Both the position numbers and the translations under genes were made by a program. A DNA stretch of 64,000 bases from Bradyrhizobium betae. Its GTDB lineage: Bacteria > Pseudomonadota > Alphaproteobacteria > Rhizobiales > Xanthobacteraceae. Under the pieces are notes generated by a model. That model had not been told where the DNA came from and made no database searches. It saw only the letters and a list, made by a program, of their open reading frames with translations. Numbering within the stretch: position 1 is the first letter of the stretch; every line of letters starts with the position of its first letter. The stretch spans positions 992,001 to 1,056,000 of the forward strand of contig NZ_CP044543.1 of NCBI RefSeq assembly GCF_008932115.1. The letters run 5' to 3'. Below, piece after piece: positions 42,625 through 49,552 of this stretch.

Positions 42625-42729
42625 GCTGCGCACCTCGCTTCGCGGGCAGGATAAATCGGCTGCCACAAACGATCCATCCCCTTTTGGGCATCGTTTCCTC
42701 ATCGAACCCAGGCGATCGAGAGGGGCAGC

Positions 42730-43062
42730 ATGGTCTATGTCTCCATGACCGGCTTTCGTCCCCGGGGCATCGCGCAATTGCCGGTGTTCTGGTGGCGGAC
42801 GATCCGGTCATTCACACAGGCGCAACGCGCACCCGGCAATCTTGTGGCCGCGGGCCGGCTCGTCGACGGGGTCTATCATACCATGACGGTGTGGTCGGAC
42901 CTGGCCAGCATGCGCGCCTTCGTGGCAAGCGGCGCGCATCTGAAGGCGATGAAGAATTTTCGGCAGCTCGGAAGCGGCCGGACCCATGGTTTCGCCTGCG
43001 ACGAAATTCCCGAGTGGAGCACCGTCTACGACCTCTGGAGGCGCGATGGTCGCGATATCTGA
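42730..43062 (+). CDS. Small ABM-like/CrtA-like domain protein, unknown function
   Basis: A 110-residue protein with the look of a dimeric alpha-beta-barrel domain (antibiotic biosynthesis monooxygenase or DUF3291/CrtA-like): YVSMTGFRPRGIAQLPVFWW, VDGVYHTMTVWSDLASMRAFV and HLKAMKNFRQLG. These features match proteins annotated as spheroidene-monooxygenase-like. No catalytic residue can be assigned. The ATG at 42730 has gagaggggcag upstream. It converges on the MHYT-GGDEF-EAL gene, stop to stop 8 bases apart. Confidence 0.7.
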   Translation: MVYVSMTGFRPRGIAQLPVFWWRTIRSFTQAQRAPGNLVAAGRLVDGVYHTMTVWSDLASMRAFVASGAHLKAMKNFRQLGSGRTHGFACDEIPEWSTVYDLWRRDGRDI

Positions 43063-43070
43063 CCGCGACC

Positions 43071-45149
43071 TCAGGCGGCCACGACCTTCGCGCGCTCGTC
43101 CTGTGCCTCCTGCCCGGGTTCCGCGGCTTTCTGCTCGTCGATCATCCGGTTGATGACATCGACCGGCATCGGTCGGCCGAACAGATAGCCCTGCACGCTG
43201 TCACAGCCTTCCTCGCGGAGGAAATCCAGATGACGCGTGGTCTCGACGCCCTCGGCCAGCACGGGAATGTTGAGACTGCGCCCGAGCAGCAGCGTCGCCT
43301 TGACGATCGCGGCCGCATGCACGCTGGTCTCGACCGCCTGGACGAAGCTCTTGTCGACCTTGATCTTGTCGAACGGAAAGGCCTGCAGCGTCGACAGCGA
43401 GGAATAGCCGGTGCCGAAATCGTCCATGGCGACGGTCACGCCAATGCTCTTCAGGGCAAGCACCACCTGGAGCGCATGCTGGCGGTCGGCGATGATGCCG
43501 CTCTCGGTCAGCTCGATCTCCAGCCGCGCCGGCGGCAGTCCCGTTTCCTTCAGAATTTCCGCGACCCGCCGCGACAGGTCGTGGTTCAGCTGCATCGGCG
43601 CGACGTTCACCGCGACCTTGTACGGCAGGCGCCACCGCGCGGCGGTCTGGCAGGCCGTCCGCATCACCCAGTCGCCGATCTCGATGATCAGGCCGGTCTC
43701 TTCCGCGATCGGAATGAAGGCATCCGGCGGGATTCGCCCCTTCTGCGGGTGGTTCCAGCGGATCAGGGCTTCGAAGCCGACGATCCCTCCGGTCTGCGTA
43801 TCGTTCTGGACCTGATAGTACAGTTCCAGCTCGTTGCCGATCAGCGCGCGCTTCAGATCGATCGCAAGCTCGGCGCGGGTGCGGCTGGCCTCGTCCATCG
43901 ACGGCTCATAGGTGCAGATCTTGCCGCGGCCGAGGCTCTTCGCGCGATACATCGCAAGGTCGGCGCGCTGGGTGAGACACTCGCCGGTCTGCCCGTGCTC
44001 GGGAAACAGGGCAACGCCGATGCTGCAACCGACCGCAAGGGTCTGATGCTGCCACTCGACCGGCTCGAGCACGACCTTGCGCAGCCGCTCGGCGAACTTC
44101 ACCGCCTCTCCGCGCGCGAAAATCTCGCTCTTGACGGCGACGAATTCGTCGCCGCCGATCCGGGCCAGGAACTCGCCCTCCCGCAATTCGCCGGAGATGC
44201 GCCGTGCCACCTGCTGCAGCAGATAGTCGCCTCCGATATGGCCGTGGACGTCGTTGATGTCCTTGAAGCGATCGAGATCGATCGCCAGCACGACGACGCG
44301 CGCGGTGTCGTCGCCACGTCCGGCAATCAGATCGTGCAGCCGCTGCGACAGGCCGTTGCGGTTCGGCAGACCGGTGAGCGGGTCGTGCATCGCCAGTTGC
44401 TTGTAACTTTCGGTCGCTTCGTTGGCGGCCTGCAGGTCGATCGCGTAGGCCGAGGCTCCCATCGCCATCATCAGGCTGACCCCGACGATGACACTGGTGA
44501 TCATGAAAGTGTCGGACAGGGTCTGCGGCGGCACGGCCATGTCGAAGACCGGGTATATCGTCACGGCGGCCATGCCGGTGAAATGCAGCGAGACGATCGC
44601 CAGGATCATCGCGAGCGTGCCGCCATATTTGCAGAAGCGGGTGATCGGCCGCGCAATGCGGTTGGCGGCCACGGCGCCGAAGCCGGCCGCGAACACGACG
44701 GAGAGTGCAACGAGCGGGTAGTTCCAGCCGAGCACGCCCGGGATCTCGAAACCCGCCATCCCCGTGTAATGCATCGCGGCGATGCCAAGACCGAAGATCG
44801 CGCCGCCGCCCTCGATCGCGGGTCCGAGCCGCGTGCGGGTCGTCATGAAGAATCCCACCCAGGCCAGGATCACGGCGATCATCAGCGAAGCAAACGACAG
44901 CGCTGGTTCAAAGGCGCGCGCGACCGGCGCATTGTAGCCGAGCATGGCCGCAAAATGGGTGGTCCAGACGGTGCCGCCCGCAACCAGTCCGGACAGGAAC
45001 AGCAGATGCAACCGCCGCATGCCGGTATTGCGACGAACCCGCGCCAGCAGCCGCATCGACAGCAGCGAGCCCAGCACGCAGACGAGCGCCGCAGCTATGA
45101 CGTAGCTGAGGTCATGCTGCGCAGGCAGACAGGTCAGGGCTTGCCACAT
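43071..45149 (-). CDS. MHYT-GGDEF-EAL membrane c-di-GMP protein
   Basis: A 692-residue inner-membrane signalling protein. The N-terminal MHYT sensor has about seven helices with the metal-type His motifs TTHFAAM (near residue 65), AAMHYTGM (126) and SLHFTGM (189); MHYT is thought to sense O2, CO or NO through bound copper. A GGDEF domain follows with intact IGGDEF (residues 331-336). An EAL domain starts GFEALIRW (E460-A461-L462) and includes AMDDFGTGYSSL and AEGVETTRHLDFLREEGCD. Both enzyme motifs are intact, so it could make or degrade c-di-GMP. An ECF-type promoter, like that of the sigma/chrR operon, lies directly upstream. Confidence 0.93.
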   Translation of the reverse strand: MWQALTCLPAQHDLSYVIAAALVCVLGSLLSMRLLARVRRNTGMRRLHLLFLSGLVAGGTVWTTHFAAMLGYNAPVARAFEPALSFASLMIAVILAWVGFFMTTRTRLGPAIEGGGAIFGLGIAAMHYTGMAGFEIPGVLGWNYPLVALSVVFAAGFGAVAANRIARPITRFCKYGGTLAMILAIVSLHFTGMAAVTIYPVFDMAVPPQTLSDTFMITSVIVGVSLMMAMGASAYAIDLQAANEATESYKQLAMHDPLTGLPNRNGLSQRLHDLIAGRGDDTARVVVLAIDLDRFKDINDVHGHIGGDYLLQQVARRISGELREGEFLARIGGDEFVAVKSEIFARGEAVKFAERLRKVVLEPVEWQHQTLAVGCSIGVALFPEHGQTGECLTQRADLAMYRAKSLGRGKICTYEPSMDEASRTRAELAIDLKRALIGNELELYYQVQNDTQTGGIVGFEALIRWNHPQKGRIPPDAFIPIAEETGLIIEIGDWVMRTACQTAARWRLPYKVAVNVAPMQLNHDLSRRVAEILKETGLPPARLEIELTESGIIADRQHALQVVLALKSIGVTVAMDDFGTGYSSLSTLQAFPFDKIKVDKSFVQAVETSVHAAAIVKATLLLGRSLNIPVLAEGVETTRHLDFLREEGCDSVQGYLFGRPMPVDVINRMIDEQKAAEPGQEAQDERAKVVAA

Positions 45150-45174
45150 CGAATGATTTCTCCCGAATGCGAGA

Positions 45175-45200
45175 TACGGGCTTGGCGTGAGAACGGATCA
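45175..45200 (-). promoter_or_regulatory. Predicted ECF (RpoE-ChrR type) promoter of the MHYT-GGDEF-EAL gene
   Basis: On the minus strand TGATCC (45200-45195), 16 bases, then CGTA (45178-45175), which ends 25 bases before the ATG at 45149. It has the same elements and spacing as the sites at 45443, 46820 and 49552. Confidence 0.7.
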
Positions 45201-45442
45201 GAGCAGTTCGAATGTTGGTTAGAAAAGTGCGAATGGCGGCCCGGCGCATGGAAGCGCAGGCAGGCGATCGGGCCATGCCGGGCCTTAAAAGCCGGTTAGG
45301 GCGCCCCTCCCGCACCGGCTTTGAAGGGAACAAAGCGCAAGCAGTATGAAGAAGGGGTGAGCGGCCACTGCGCCACTGACGGCAACTGGAACCCCGCTTG
45401 TCGCAGGCCGGACGAACGCCTAAGACATGACCACCCGGCAGG

Positions 45443-45468
45443 TGATCCAAACGGCGGCGTCCATCGTT
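45443..45468 (+). promoter_or_regulatory. Predicted autoregulatory ECF promoter of the sigma-chrR operon
   Basis: TGATCC (45443-45448), 16 bases, CGTT (45465-45468), 28 bases before the ATG at 45497. The -35 TGATCC is the element reported for RpoE-ChrR (ECF11) promoters in Rhodobacter, and such sigma factors usually activate their own operon. Confidence 0.72.
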
Positions 45469-45496
45469 TCCGAGCGGATATACCAACCGAGGCTTC

Positions 45497-46153
45497 ATGA
45501 ACGCCGGTCTTCCAGCCCTGAGCAGGTCCGTACGGAGCAGGCCCTCCCTGCCCGCTCGTCGCTGGATCCGGTTGCAACGGACACCATTGGAAAGGCCCAA
45601 GGCGACGGTGGAATGGGCTGAATTGATCGGACGTGTCGCGGCCCATGGCGATCGCGATGCCTTCAAGCTTCTGTTCGAGCATTTTGCTCCTCGCGTGAAG
45701 GGTCTCCTGATGAAGATCGGGACGGACGCCGACACCGCGGAGGAAATCGCGCAGAGCACGCTGCTTGCCGTCTGGCGCAAGGCGGCTCAATTCGATCCGT
45801 CGTCCGGCGGCGCAGCCGCGTGGATCTTCACCATCGCGCGGAATCTGCGCATCGACGCGGCCAGGCGCGCGGTGCGACAGGCGCGTGCCGACCAGCCCGG
45901 CTTCATCGATGACGCTGACGACGTCGTCGACTCACCTGAGATCCTCATGACCCGAGGCGAGGACGTCTCGCGCGTTGCGGCCGCGCTGCTTCGCCTGTCG
46001 GAGGAGCAATCCAGGGTGGTCCGGATGTCGTTTATCGAGGAGCGCCCACATGCAGAGATCGCCGAGAGCCTCGGCATTCCCCTTGGAACCGTGAAATCAC
46101 GCATCCGACTGGCCATGAATCGGCTGCGAGACCTGCTGGACGAATCGACATGA
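45497..46153 (+). CDS. rpoE: ECF sigma factor, RpoE of the RpoE-ChrR type
   Basis: A 218-residue group-4 sigma factor. Sigma-2 includes DAFKLLFEHFAPRVKGLLMKIG, DTAEEIAQSTLLAVWRKA and WIFTIARNLRIDAARR. Sigma-4 has MSFIEERPHAEIAESLGIP followed by GTVKSRIRLAMNRLRDLL. It is followed by a ChrR anti-sigma gene with a 4-base overlap. In Rhodobacter and Caulobacter this pair controls the response to singlet oxygen. The ATG at 45497 has GAGG 4 bases upstream and fits the predicted promoter; a GTG at 45608 would give a shorter product nearer the usual length. Confidence 0.9.
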   Translation: MNAGLPALSRSVRSRPSLPARRWIRLQRTPLERPKATVEWAELIGRVAAHGDRDAFKLLFEHFAPRVKGLLMKIGTDADTAEEIAQSTLLAVWRKAAQFDPSSGGAAAWIFTIARNLRIDAARRAVRQARADQPGFIDDADDVVDSPEILMTRGEDVSRVAAALLRLSEEQSRVVRMSFIEERPHAEIAESLGIPLGTVKSRIRLAMNRLRDLLDEST

Positions 46154-46797
46154 CCATCAGTCACCACCCACCGGACGAACTGCTTGCCGATTTCGCAACG
46201 GGCCGACTCGACGAGGCCGATCATCTCGTTGTCGCCGTGCACGTCGCGCAGTGCCCGGCGTGCCGCCGCTTTGCCGGGGCGATGGAGCATCTGGCCGGCG
46301 CCGCGCTCGAGGAGACCGCACCGGTTGCGATGAAGGCCGATGCGTTCGCGGCGATCATGGCGAAGCTCGATGAGCCGCAGCCGGCGCCGCGCGAGGATGC
46401 CCAGCCGCCTGCCGAGCTTCCGGATGAGGATTTGCCGGAGATATTGCGCCGCTGCCGGTTCGGCAAGCAACGCCGCGTGGCGCCCGGCCTGAAGCTTCAA
46501 CCGATCATTCTGCCGAGCGCGAAACAGTCGCGCGCGTTCCTGCTGTGGTCCGCGCCCGGCGCACGCATGCTGCAACACTCTCACAGTGGAACGGAGCTGA
46601 CCTGCGTGTTGAAGGGCAGCTTCAGTCACGAAGCCGGCCGCTACGGCCCGGGCGATTTCGATTTCGGCGACGGCGAGGTCGATCATCAGCCTGTCGTGGG
46701 GCCGGAGGAACCCTGCCTGTGTCTGGTCGCCATGACCGGAGACCTCGAATTGCATGGACTGCTTGGCCGGCTGATTTCGCCCTTCGTCCGGCTTTGA
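46150..46797 (+). CDS. chrR: ChrR-family zinc anti-sigma factor with cupin domain
   Basis: A 215-residue cytoplasmic anti-sigma factor. The N-terminal zinc domain has H5/H6, H31, C35 and C38 (HVAQCPAC), the same numbers as the zinc ligands of Rhodobacter ChrR. The C-terminal cupin has H143, H145 and E149 (QHSHSGTEL) and H179 (EVDHQP), each two positions from the Rhodobacter cupin ligands. In that system singlet oxygen triggers ChrR breakdown and releases RpoE. The gene starts in the sigma stop (ATGA), so the two are coupled. Confidence 0.95.
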   Translation: MTISHHPPDELLADFATGRLDEADHLVVAVHVAQCPACRRFAGAMEHLAGAALEETAPVAMKADAFAAIMAKLDEPQPAPREDAQPPAELPDEDLPEILRRCRFGKQRRVAPGLKLQPIILPSAKQSRAFLLWSAPGARMLQHSHSGTELTCVLKGSFSHEAGRYGPGDFDFGDGEVDHQPVVGPEEPCLCLVAMTGDLELHGLLGRLISPFVRL

Positions 46798-46819
46798 GCG
46801 CGGCCTCCGTTCGCGGAGG

Positions 46820-46845
46820 TGATCCAGCGCCGCGCGGGCATCGTT
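46820..46845 (+). promoter_or_regulatory. Predicted ECF promoter of the second sigma-photolyase operon
   Basis: TGATCC (46820-46825), 16 bases, CGTT (46842-46845), 29 bases before the ATG at 46875. The -10 neighbourhood catcgtttcc is the same as in the site at 45443. It lies just after the chrR stop codon, so the downstream genes can be transcribed on their own. Confidence 0.7.
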
Positions 46846-46874
46846 TCCTTGCTGACTGATGCGGGAGACGAGGC

Positions 46875-47480
46875 ATGAGCTGCGGTCGCGCCGTTCAAAG
46901 GGATTCAAGCATCGAGCGGTTGAGTGCCCTGCTCCGGCGCGCCGGAAACGGCGACCAGCGGGCCTTTGCGGAATTGCACGCGTCGACCCGCAACAGGTTG
47001 CGCAAGACCGCACTGGCGGTGTCGCCATCGATCGTCGATCTCGACGATCTGCTTCAGGAAGCCTATCTGAAGATCTGGAAAAACGCCGCGAGTTTCGATT
47101 CACGACGCGCCTCGCCCATCACGTGGATGTGCACGATCATGCGCAACACCACAATCGACGCGCTCCGGCTGAAGCAGGTGGCCACGACCGATCTGGACGA
47201 AGCCTTGTCCGTGCCCGATGCAGGCGGGCGGGATACCGACCCGTTCGACTACGATCTCGTTCAGCCGATCGCGGCCGGTGTTCTCGACAGACTTCCACGG
47301 GATCGCCGGCATCTGCTCTCGCTCGCCTATCTCGAGGGTGAAAGCCGGCTGAGCCTGTCGCGGCGGTTCGGCGTGCCCGTCGGCACGATCAAGACCTGGC
47401 TGCATCGGACGCTCGCTTCGGTCCGCACCGATTGCCTGGCTTGTGCGTCAGGTGCTGCCGCACCGCAGCCCCATCCGTGA
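46875..47480 (+). CDS. Second ECF sigma factor
   Basis: A 201-residue ECF sigma factor. Sigma-2 has GDQRAFAELHASTRNRLRKTA, VDLDDLLQEAYLKIWKNA and WMCTIMRNTTIDALR. Sigma-4 has LLSLAYLEGESRLSLSRRFG followed by VPVGTIKTWLHRTLASVR. The start has ggagacgagg upstream. No anti-sigma gene of its own is next to it; instead the photolyase start overlaps its stop (GTGA). It sits behind a promoter of the RpoE-ChrR type, so it may form the second step of a sigma cascade. The C-terminal tail ends in CASGAAAPQPHP. Confidence 0.9.
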   Translation: MSCGRAVQRDSSIERLSALLRRAGNGDQRAFAELHASTRNRLRKTALAVSPSIVDLDDLLQEAYLKIWKNAASFDSRRASPITWMCTIMRNTTIDALRLKQVATTDLDEALSVPDAGGRDTDPFDYDLVQPIAAGVLDRLPRDRRHLLSLAYLEGESRLSLSRRFGVPVGTIKTWLHRTLASVRTDCLACASGAAAPQPHP

Positions 47481-49024
47481 GCCTGCCATTGGACCGATCC
47501 AGCGGGCCGGAGGACGTCCGCCATCTCGTCGTCGTGCTCGGAGACCAGCTCGACGCCGACGGCGCCGCATTCGACGGCTTCGACCCCGCCCACGACCTCG
47601 TGCTGCAGATGGAGGTGATCGAAGAGACCTCGTACATCCCGCAGCACAAAAAGCGCATCGCCTATTTCCTCGCCTCGATGCGACACTTCAGGGACGAACT
47701 GATCGCGCGCGGGCGGCGTGTGCACTATGTCTACATCGACGAGCACGACAATACCGGGCGCTTCGAAACCGAGATCGCGCGGGCCCAGCGTGGGTTCAGG
47801 CCCTCCCGGACGATTGTGGTCGAGCCGGGCGACTGGCGCGTCGCCGAGAAGCTGCGCCGCCTGCCGCAGGTGCCGGAGATCCGCAGCGACAGCCACTTCC
47901 TGTGCTCGCGCGAGGAGTTTGCGGCCTTTTCTGAACGACATCCACGCCCGGTGCTTGAAACCTTCTACCGCGCCATGCGCCGGAAGACCGGGCTTCTGAT
48001 GGATATCGCCGGACGACCTGTCGGCGGCGCGTGGAATTTCGACGCGGAGAATCGCAAATCCTTCGGCAGGACCAACCCCTCCATACCGCCGCGACCCGCA
48101 TGTCCGCCCGACGCGATCACGACGGAGGTGCTGCGGCTCGTCGCCGCACGCTTCGCAGGCAGCCCTGGCAAGCTCGACGGCTTCGACCTGCCTGTCACGC
48201 GGACACAGGCGCTCGCGCAGCTGGACGACTTCGTTGCCGAGCGGCTGCCGCAGTTCGGCGACTATCAGGACGCGATGCGATCCGGCCAGCCTTTCCTCTA
48301 CCACTCGGTCTTGTCGGGCCCGTTGAACCTGCACCAATTGCGCCCGCTGGAGGTCGTCCGGTCCGCGCTTCGAAACACCACGGCCCCGCTGAACGCGCTG
48401 GAAGGCTTCACCCGCCAGATCATCGGATGGCGAGAATTCGTCCGCGGCATCTACTGGCAGCGCATGCCGCACTATGCGCAAGCGAACGCGCTCGGCGCCG
48501 AATTGCCGATGCCGAAATTCTACTGGACCGGCGAGACCGACATGCGCTGCCTCGCCGAGGCGATTGGTCACACGATCGACTACGCCTATGCCCACCATAT
48601 CGAGCGGCTGATGGTGCTCGGGCTGTTCGCCATGCTGCTGGGCGTGCGGCCCTACGACGTCCATCGCTGGCACATGTCGATGTTCTGGGATGCGGTCGAT
48701 TGGGTTTCCCTGCCGAACACGCTCGGCATGAGCCAGCATGGCGACGGCGGCATTGTCGGCACGAAGCCCTACGCGGCGTCGGGCAACTACATCCACCGCA
48801 TGAGCGATCATTGCCGGCATTGCCGCTTCGATCCCAAAAAATCGATCGGCGAGGATGCCTGTCCCTTTACCACGCTCTACTGGAATTTCCTGGACAAGCA
48901 CCGCCATCGCTTCGCCGCCAACGGCCGGATGAAGAACCAGTATGCCAATCTGGCCCGCAAGGATGACGGAGAATTGCGCTCGATCCGGCGCCAGGCAGCC
49001 AGCATCGCCGAGGCCTTAACCTGA
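47477..49024 (+). CDS. phrB: Fe-S (6-4)-type photolyase / CryB-PhrB family
   Basis: A 515-residue flavoprotein of the iron-sulfur bacterial cryptochrome/photolyase group, which repairs (6-4) UV lesions in DNA. The N-terminal domain starts RHLVVVLGDQLDADGAAFDGF. The four cluster cysteines are C358, C446, C449 and C462 (MRCLAEA, DHCRHCRF, DACPF), with the same spacing (88, 3, 13) as the cluster cysteines of Agrobacterium PhrB. The FAD region has LNALEGFTRQIIGWREFVRGIY-type sequence. The GTG at 47477 overlaps the sigma stop by 4 bases, which decides the start and shows coupling. Confidence 0.93.
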   Translation: MSLPLDRSSGPEDVRHLVVVLGDQLDADGAAFDGFDPAHDLVLQMEVIEETSYIPQHKKRIAYFLASMRHFRDELIARGRRVHYVYIDEHDNTGRFETEIARAQRGFRPSRTIVVEPGDWRVAEKLRRLPQVPEIRSDSHFLCSREEFAAFSERHPRPVLETFYRAMRRKTGLLMDIAGRPVGGAWNFDAENRKSFGRTNPSIPPRPACPPDAITTEVLRLVAARFAGSPGKLDGFDLPVTRTQALAQLDDFVAERLPQFGDYQDAMRSGQPFLYHSVLSGPLNLHQLRPLEVVRSALRNTTAPLNALEGFTRQIIGWREFVRGIYWQRMPHYAQANALGAELPMPKFYWTGETDMRCLAEAIGHTIDYAYAHHIERLMVLGLFAMLLGVRPYDVHRWHMSMFWDAVDWVSLPNTLGMSQHGDGGIVGTKPYAASGNYIHRMSDHCRHCRFDPKKSIGEDACPFTTLYWNFLDKHRHRFAANGRMKNQYANLARKDDGELRSIRRQAASIAEALT

Positions 49025-49036
49025 GCCGCGGCTCAG
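49021..49036. terminator. Palindrome across the stop codons of photolyase and tspO
   Basis: Perfect 16-base palindrome CTGAGCCGCGGCTCAG that contains the TGA of the photolyase gene and the stop of the convergent tspO gene. There is no T run; it may slow polymerase or protect the two 3' ends. Confidence 0.4.
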
Positions 49037-49485
49037 TTGAGCCAGAAAATGCTGGCGTTGAGCAGGGTGGCAAAAGCCACCCAGGCGAGATAGGGCACGA
49101 ATAGCGCCGCGGCGACCCGGTCGGCCTGCCAACGCTCGACGATGAACCCGATGATGGACAGCAGCATCGCGACAATCACGGCCAGCGCCACGCCGGTGCG
49201 ATGCCAGGTGAAGAAGACCGGCGACCAGGTGAAATTGAGCAGCATCTGCACGGTCCAGAGCAGCATGCCCGCACCGCGCGGCGTCCGCTCCCAGGTCCGT
49301 GCCCCGGCCAGCGCGATCAGCAGGTAGATCACGGACCACGCCGGCGCGAACACCCAGTTCGGCGGGTTGAACGGCGGCTTGGTCAGCCCGGCATACCAGC
49401 CGCCCGGCAGGTTTGTACTACCGATGACAAAGCCGATCCCGACCACGATCAGGATGAACAGTGCCACTCTTGCATAACTTGCCAT
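49033..49485 (-). CDS. tspO: TspO/MBR family protein (tryptophan-rich sensory protein)
   Basis: A 150-residue five-helix membrane protein. The N-terminal family motif is GGWYAGLTKPPFNPPNWVFA followed by PAWSVIYLLIALAG; later LLNFTWSPVFFTWH and FVPYLAWVAFATLLNASIFWLN match the family. TspO binds tetrapyrroles and in Rhodobacter modulates light- and oxygen-dependent gene expression. The ATG at 49485 is chosen over an upstream codon at 49509 because it matches the usual N-terminus. An ECF-type promoter lies 42 bases upstream, tying it to the neighbouring sigma/ChrR system. Confidence 0.93.
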   Translation of the reverse strand: MASYARVALFILIVVGIGFVIGSTNLPGGWYAGLTKPPFNPPNWVFAPAWSVIYLLIALAGARTWERTPRGAGMLLWTVQMLLNFTWSPVFFTWHRTGVALAVIVAMLLSIIGFIVERWQADRVAAALFVPYLAWVAFATLLNASIFWLN

Positions 49486-49526
49486 TAGCCAACGTCGCGC
49501 GTGATACACATAGGGAGTATCGACTT

Positions 49527-49552
49527 AACGCTGCAGCAGCCGCATTGGATCA
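49527..49552 (-). promoter_or_regulatory. Predicted ECF promoter of tspO
   Basis: On the minus strand TGATCC (49552-49547), 16 bases, CGTT followed by AAG (49530-49527). It ends 41 bases before the tspO ATG and shares TGATCCAA with the site at 45443. Confidence 0.7.

Follow-up and report, generated by a model that had tools for sequence, protein, structure and literature searches.

The closest described counterpart of the regulon analysed here, on a stretch of Bradyrhizobium betae DNA holding a sigma factor-chrR pair, is the singlet-oxygen response of Rhodobacter sphaeroides, governed by RpoE, an extracytoplasmic function (ECF) sigma factor, and the anti-sigma factor ChrR. The parts of the published accounts cited here by PMC identifier assign to the R. 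sphaeroides regulon a photolyase, GTP cyclohydrolase, a flavin amine oxidase of the RSP_1091 type and a cyclopropane-synthase-like gene (PMC7074977, PMC5507510, PMC6852236), listed as phrA, cfaS, RSP_1087-1091 and folE2 (PMC7074977). The second tier of that response is RpoHII (PMC6852236), on which the tspO promoter of R. sphaeroides depends (PMC8307010). In Pseudomonas syringae, the ECF11 system PSPTO_1043/1042 has the consensus TGATCC-N16-CGTA, derived by chromatin immunoprecipitation sequencing, and the listed promoters include those of sigma-chrR, phrB and a diguanylate cyclase, the last with a 21-fold change upon sigma overexpression (PMC5507510, Table 3). Within the genus, Bradyrhizobium japonicum possesses EcfG; its EcfQ and EcfF are ECF sigma factors whose genes are induced by singlet oxygen and H2O2 (PMC3420878).

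We analysed 64,000 nucleotides of B. betae (contig NZ_CP044543.1, positions 992,001 to 1,056,000; G000:C1:992001-1056000 in the locus names used below), hereafter the window. The core RpoE regulon was reportedly predicted across many species by Dufour et al. in 2008. As far as titles and abstract beginnings show, the literature searched contains no work on the module in Bradyrhizobium; a published prediction for some Bradyrhizobium is possible.

Promoter sites and the sigma-1-ChrR pair

An earlier note on this DNA had claimed four sites of the pattern TGATCC-N16-CGT(T/A) in front of four transcription units, and had read them as promoters of a local, six-gene RpoE-ChrR regulon. Our motif scan found all four where they had been placed (Table 1). 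TGATCC occurs 56 times in the window and is followed by CGTW at N15-19 in just these four cases; when the spacing was varied from 5 to 40, N16 gave four TGATCC/CGTW pairs and every other spacing at most one. The -10 elements end 25, 28 and 29 bases before the start codons of the MHYT-GGDEF-EAL, sigma-1 and sigma-2 genes, respectively, and before tspO the distance is 41 bases to the ATG at 49485 or 17 bases to an upstream GTG. The remaining TGATCC copies of the block (43760, 44603, 44867 and 49842) are all intragenic, so that every intergenic copy does share the one spacing, as had been stated.

Taken by itself, the number of sites in the window is unusual to a moderate degree, as dinucleotide-shuffled windows contained a mean of 0.95 matches to the N15-19 pattern and at least four in 2 of 100 shuffles. 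The clustering is the extreme part. The 7.42 Mb genome holds 31 exact TGATCC-N16-CGTW sites (22 CGTT and 9 CGTA), given which four within 4.4 kb have a Poisson P of ~5e-9, for a stretch picked post hoc.

The best PDB match of sigma-1 is RpoE (2q1z_A, E 2.2e-39), with which it shares the region-4 stretch PLGT(V/I)KSRIRLA. The chrR gene directly follows sigma-1 with a 4-base overlap. Its product scores 195.7 bits against the NCBIfam model TIGR02451 (cut-off 124.5), matches 2z2s_B at E 1.1e-39 and keeps 8/8 zinc ligands of the anti-sigma and cupin domains in the alignment (ligand list for R. sphaeroides ChrR in PMC6852236). It is the single ChrR match in the whole genome. These family matches identify sigma-1 and ChrR as a predicted pair of the Rhodobacter RpoE-ChrR (ECF11) type, in agreement with the earlier note: ChrR stands after an RpoE-related sigma factor, the zinc ligands are present, and the motif precedes the putative sigma operon. 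Known targets also lie under the motif, the photolyase solely as the second gene of a putative operon behind sigma-2.

Conservation in relatives and the regulon beyond the block

A scan for ChrR gave 31 named loci, 28 of them labelled Bradyrhizobium, with all the closest ones among these. In the window and these 31 loci together, related loci included, there are 102 N16 sites and 0-11 at each other spacing from N10 to N24 (11 at N10). For scoring of distinct 120-base upstreams, we added loci from further genomes to the 31, and of the 34 genomes with sigma-2 the loci of the best 30 matches were used. The identity thresholds were 50% for sigma genes, 65% for MHYT and tspO genes and 40% for all others; loci with fewer than 120 upstream bases and repeated upstreams were dropped.

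The N16 site is exact in 33 and has one mismatch in 5 of the 38 distinct sigma-1 upstreams. The corresponding numbers are 43 and 1 of 44 for sigma-2, 9 and 0 of 9 for tspO, 6 and 2 of 8 for the MHYT-GGDEF-EAL gene, and 4 and 3 of 8 for a DUF3291-like gene. Loss of the motif in relatives had been named as what would refute the earlier claim; the motif is kept at N16 in front of all four original units. Control upstreams had neither exact nor one-mismatch N16 sites (chrR 0/46, photolyase 0/12, HD gene 0/11, hydrolase 0/11). Since chrR and the photolyase have coding DNA upstream, the HD gene and hydrolase (22 upstreams) are the fair intergenic controls. In sigma-1 and sigma-2 sites that are exact or one mismatch away, conservation is 57-59% in the spacer and 99-100% in the core, the latter being raised by the selection of sites. 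Likewise, the -35 and -10 elements are retained amid diverged DNA in an alignment of tspO upstreams from three species. The -10 element is CGTA in 8/8 distinct MHYT sites, whereas ~98% of the sigma-1 and sigma-2 promoters have T as its last base.

Comparison with relatives also brought out a fifth local promoter, 34 bases 5' of the DUF3291-like gene. Its -35 element is CGATCC in the window and at loci L032 and L031 (= G026), TGATCC in genomes G014, G085, G155 and G087, and CAATCC, with two mismatches, in G060. In G014 the gene order is the same as here, with sites before the DUF3291-like gene, the MHYT gene, sigma-1 (TGATCT), sigma-2 and tspO. The four promoters first described stand, and the local count rises from four promoters and six genes to five promoters and seven genes, the fifth promoter with one mismatch.

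Contrary to the earlier note, the regulon reaches beyond this block, with a further eight exact sites in front of genes elsewhere on the chromosome, at three places. Four of them make up cluster 2 (C1:5.5577-5.5662 Mb) and stand before a membrane-protein-DUF3429 pair, a divergent methyltransferase, folE and a fasciclin gene, the last two at ~C1:5.566 Mb; the methyltransferase site lies ~257 bases from the likely start and is therefore weaker. All four sites recur in G155. The folE and fasciclin sites recur in G008, where the stretch read excludes the divergent pair; G159 keeps the divergent pair, and its fasciclin gene has two tandem sites, with no folE between. At cluster 3 (C1:6.512-6.514 Mb), amine oxidase-DUF1365, DUF1295-CMAS and DUF2177 are each preceded by an exact CGTA site, three in all; we take DUF1365 to correspond to RSP_1090. 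Elsewhere in the genus Bradyrhizobium, sigma-2 has the amine oxidase and DUF2177 genes as neighbours, again with the motif. A second folE (C1:5.9618 Mb) has one exact site, inside a long open frame. Altogether there are 13 promoters at four chromosomal places, 12 of them exact and one with a single mismatch, and the regulon would comprise about 18 genes if the probable operons are counted in full.

Of 18 ChrR-positive genomes, 11 have an exact site ahead of their best folE locus, compared with 1 of 12 ChrR-negative ones (Fisher P 0.007, post hoc; the upstream length of 320 bases was set after more distant sites were known). Two further sites lie outside the counted regulon. At G000:C1:2290807 (-), locus L062, TGATCC-N16-CGTT stands 94-130 bases before a ferrochelatase-like open reading frame (ORF) and inside an opposite-strand MAPEG-like ORF (both named by eye), with a near-identical 26-mer in G014; it is a candidate for either a target or a coding constraint. 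At G000:C1:1159867 (-), locus L021, an exact site outside the counted regulon lies 86 bases before a 428-aa membrane-protein-like ORF.

The second ECF sigma factor and the reading of the sites

Sigma-2 follows chrR and is an ECF sigma factor of another kind. Its nearest PDB structure is SigK (4nqw, E 2e-17), and its region-4 stretch, PVGTIKTWLHRTL, is unlike the one of sigma-1 and RpoE. Sigma-2 is not a second ECF11 sigma by these marks, having no ChrR of its own (the genome has one) and a region 4 that is not RpoE-like. Among 146 genomes of one genus, 35 have a close ChrR (at least 58% identity, 37 loci) and 10 a distant one alone (46-49%). Sigma-2 is found at E <1e-60 in 34/146, within 200 bases of a close chrR in 34/34 and directly behind chrR at 34/37 close loci, the three exceptions being the G098 locus, at a contig edge, and additional chrR copies of G060 and G085. 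These second ChrR copies (G060:C1:2136588 and G085:C1:596906, 63-64% identity) lie ~1.7 kb from folE and lack a sigma-2 match. The distant-ChrR genomes have a sigma-2 match at E <1e-30 in 0/10. Of 580 database matches to sigma-2, the best 120 name Bradyrhizobium in every row that gives an organism, most rows giving none. The N16 promoter stands before sigma-2 in every upstream examined (44/44 with at most one mismatch), and the photolyase, whose GTG start overlaps the sigma-2 stop, has no motif of its own.

We consider it probable, at roughly 0.87, that the sites are ECF11-type promoters read by sigma-1 once an oxidant has released it from ChrR, and that both the local and the distant units are transcribed in this way. 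ChrR would hold sigma-1 inactive until an oxidant, by analogy with Rhodobacter singlet oxygen or an organic hydroperoxide, inactivates it. Freed sigma-1 would then transcribe its own operon, sigma-2-photolyase, tspO, the MHYT-GGDEF-EAL gene and the DUF3291-like gene, along with about eight more units elsewhere in the genome. The photolyase, a relative of (6-4) PhrB, would repair DNA, TspO would handle tetrapyrroles, which are potential generators of singlet oxygen, the MHYT protein would alter cyclic di-GMP (c-di-GMP), and sigma-2 would form a second tier of the response.

Several observations weigh against this reading. The scored upstreams derive from kindred genomes, and their counts are non-independent. 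The MHYT promoter is the least uniform among the original four, with AGATCC in one relative and TCATCC in another, and the window's own DUF3291-gene site has a mismatch. Distant tspO genes (54-58% identity, excluded from the count) lack an N16 site of their own; an exact site stands before a DUF2177 gene upstream of the distant tspO at L050 and L053, not at L049. Elsewhere in the genome, 19/31 exact sites fall in open frames (identified without gene calling), outside the assigned promoters. In 7/18 ChrR-positive genomes an exact N16 site is missing from the best folE locus, and G006, which has no ChrR match at E 1e-30, carries an exact TGATCC-N16-CGTA 203 bases 5' of folE (G006:C17, locus L162). 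Raw genome-wide counts separate the two groups weakly, at means of 3.07 N16 sites/Mb in ChrR-positive (n=32) and 2.49 in ChrR-negative (n=22) genomes (P 0.0025), with 7 distant-ChrR genomes left out. We restricted this comparison to N16 rates, as N17-18 serves poorly as a control: an N18 spacing preserves the codon phase, and its counts run high in coding DNA.

The strongest alternative has sigma-2, alone or together with sigma-1, reading the promoters, in which case sigma-2 would act as a positive-feedback amplifier and not as a second tier with targets of its own. The near-invariable presence of TGATCC-N16-CGTT ahead of sigma-2 itself would fit such a loop. However, the motif before sigma-1 is retained at L058, L059 and L060, where no sigma-2 was found, and it is sigma-1 that shares the region-4 stretch with RpoE; we regard this alternative as improbable. 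Still less probable is an assignment to the general stress sigma factor EcfG, whose consensus is GGAAC-N16/17-CGTT. The -10 letters are equal and the spacing is similar, but the -35 element here is not GGAAC: most conserved copies have TGATCC and the remainder differ from it by a single base. The folE site, moreover, tends to occur where ChrR is present, with exceptions. Random matching of ten bases in GC-rich DNA could account for many of the 31 genomic sites, particularly those within long open frames, and for the occasional shuffle with four, but hardly for the clustering, and this explanation is contradicted by the conservation counts at one exact spacing across diverged intergenic DNA.

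The conserved position of sigma-2 behind an ECF11-type promoter suggests an ECF-to-ECF cascade. More specifically, the Bradyrhizobium singlet-oxygen response might be a two-step cascade in which the sigma factor under ChrR control drives a further ECF sigma, one lacking an anti-sigma factor of its own and controlled solely through its transcription, replacing the RpoHII of Rhodobacter and coupling c-di-GMP (through MHYT-GGDEF-EAL) and tetrapyrrole handling (through TspO) directly to the oxidant sensor. We propose this tentatively, with slightly less than even confidence. A 100-aa ORF lies directly behind sigma-2 in a Bradyrhizobium without photolyase at that place (L039:11327-11629) and could regulate sigma-2. 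The genome also has a sigma-2 paralogue (42%) at G000:C1:5132230-5132796 (-), locus L152, beside a receiver-domain-like ORF; we found no support for its being EcfQ, as the published ecfQ promoter boxes are absent upstream.

As for the other putative local targets, GGDEF and EAL motifs are legible in the translation of the MHYT protein, for which c-di-GMP turnover is expected. The structures matching TspO are 8e7x and 4uc1, and the DUF3291 match (E 8.6e-4) is below the curated cut-off.

Table 1. Promoters and genes of the block, in window coordinates
Feature	Position	Strand	Basis
DUF3291-like gene promoter (fifth local promoter), CGATCC-N16-CGTT, one mismatch	42670..42695	+	Comparison with relatives
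DUF3291-like protein, 110 aa, probable regulon member	42730..43062	+	Pfam DUF3291 and promoter
MHYT-GGDEF-EAL membrane protein	43071..45149	-	Pfam MHYT, GGDEF, EAL
MHYT-GGDEF-EAL promoter, TGATCC-N16-CGTA	45175..45200	-	Window scan and conservation in relatives
Sigma-1-chrR promoter, putatively autoregulatory, TGATCC-N16-CGTT	45443..45468	+	Window scan and conservation in relatives
Sigma-1, ECF sigma factor, RpoE (ECF11) type	45497..46153	+	PDB match 2q1z_A
ChrR-type zinc anti-sigma factor with cupin domain	46150..46797	+	TIGR02451, 2z2s_B
Sigma-2-photolyase promoter, TGATCC-N16-CGTT	46820..46845	+	Window scan and conservation in relatives
Sigma-2, second ECF sigma factor, no further anti-sigma gene adjoining	46875..47480	+	Pfam
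PhrB/CryB-type photolyase	47477..49024	+	Pfam DPRP; 5kcm/4dja (6-4) photolyase, E ~5e-149
TspO, ATG start 49485, GTG at 49509 also possible	49033..49485	-	Pfam TspO_MBR
tspO promoter, TGATCC-N16-CGTT	49527..49552	-	Window scan and conservation in relatives

Comparison with the known systems

The earlier observation is real and its reading right in kind; the regulon is broader than it stated, and what is unusual is the second, conserved ECF sigma. The circuit would extend photo-oxidative stress control to the soil and root-nodule bacteria of the genus Bradyrhizobium, and may tie an oxidant sensor directly to c-di-GMP. The precision of the promoter makes regulon members legible through genome comparison, and the conserved sigma-2 and its targets deserve attention.

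Sigma-1 and ChrR are homologous to the solved pair of R. sphaeroides with the zinc ligands kept, and the gene kinds of that RpoE regulon (photolyase, folE, amine oxidase and cfa-like) carry or follow the motif here. The second tier would differ. Whereas it is of the RpoH type in R. sphaeroides, here a second ECF sigma carries the promoter instead; the sole RpoH over our cut-off has no N16 site with up to two mismatches in its 400 upstream bases, a weaker RpoH-like match (L202, below the cut-off) being left out. Similarly, tspO is RpoHII-dependent in R. sphaeroides but has an ECF11-type promoter here.

EcfQ of B. japonicum resembles sigma-2 in having no linked anti-sigma factor, but the GTAAC-based EcfF motif and the ecfQ promoter boxes differ from the motif found here, and the parts of PMC3420878 cited nowhere describe either as a ChrR system.

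The promoter elements and their spacing equal the ECF11 consensus of P. syringae (PMC5507510). The -10 element is CGTT at sigma-1, sigma-2 and tspO and CGTA at the MHYT gene and cluster 3, compared with CGTA in P. syringae, and no second ECF sigma or tspO appears among the Table 3 rows of that paper cited here. Its diguanylate cyclase is, by analogy, a precedent for the MHYT-GGDEF-EAL gene.

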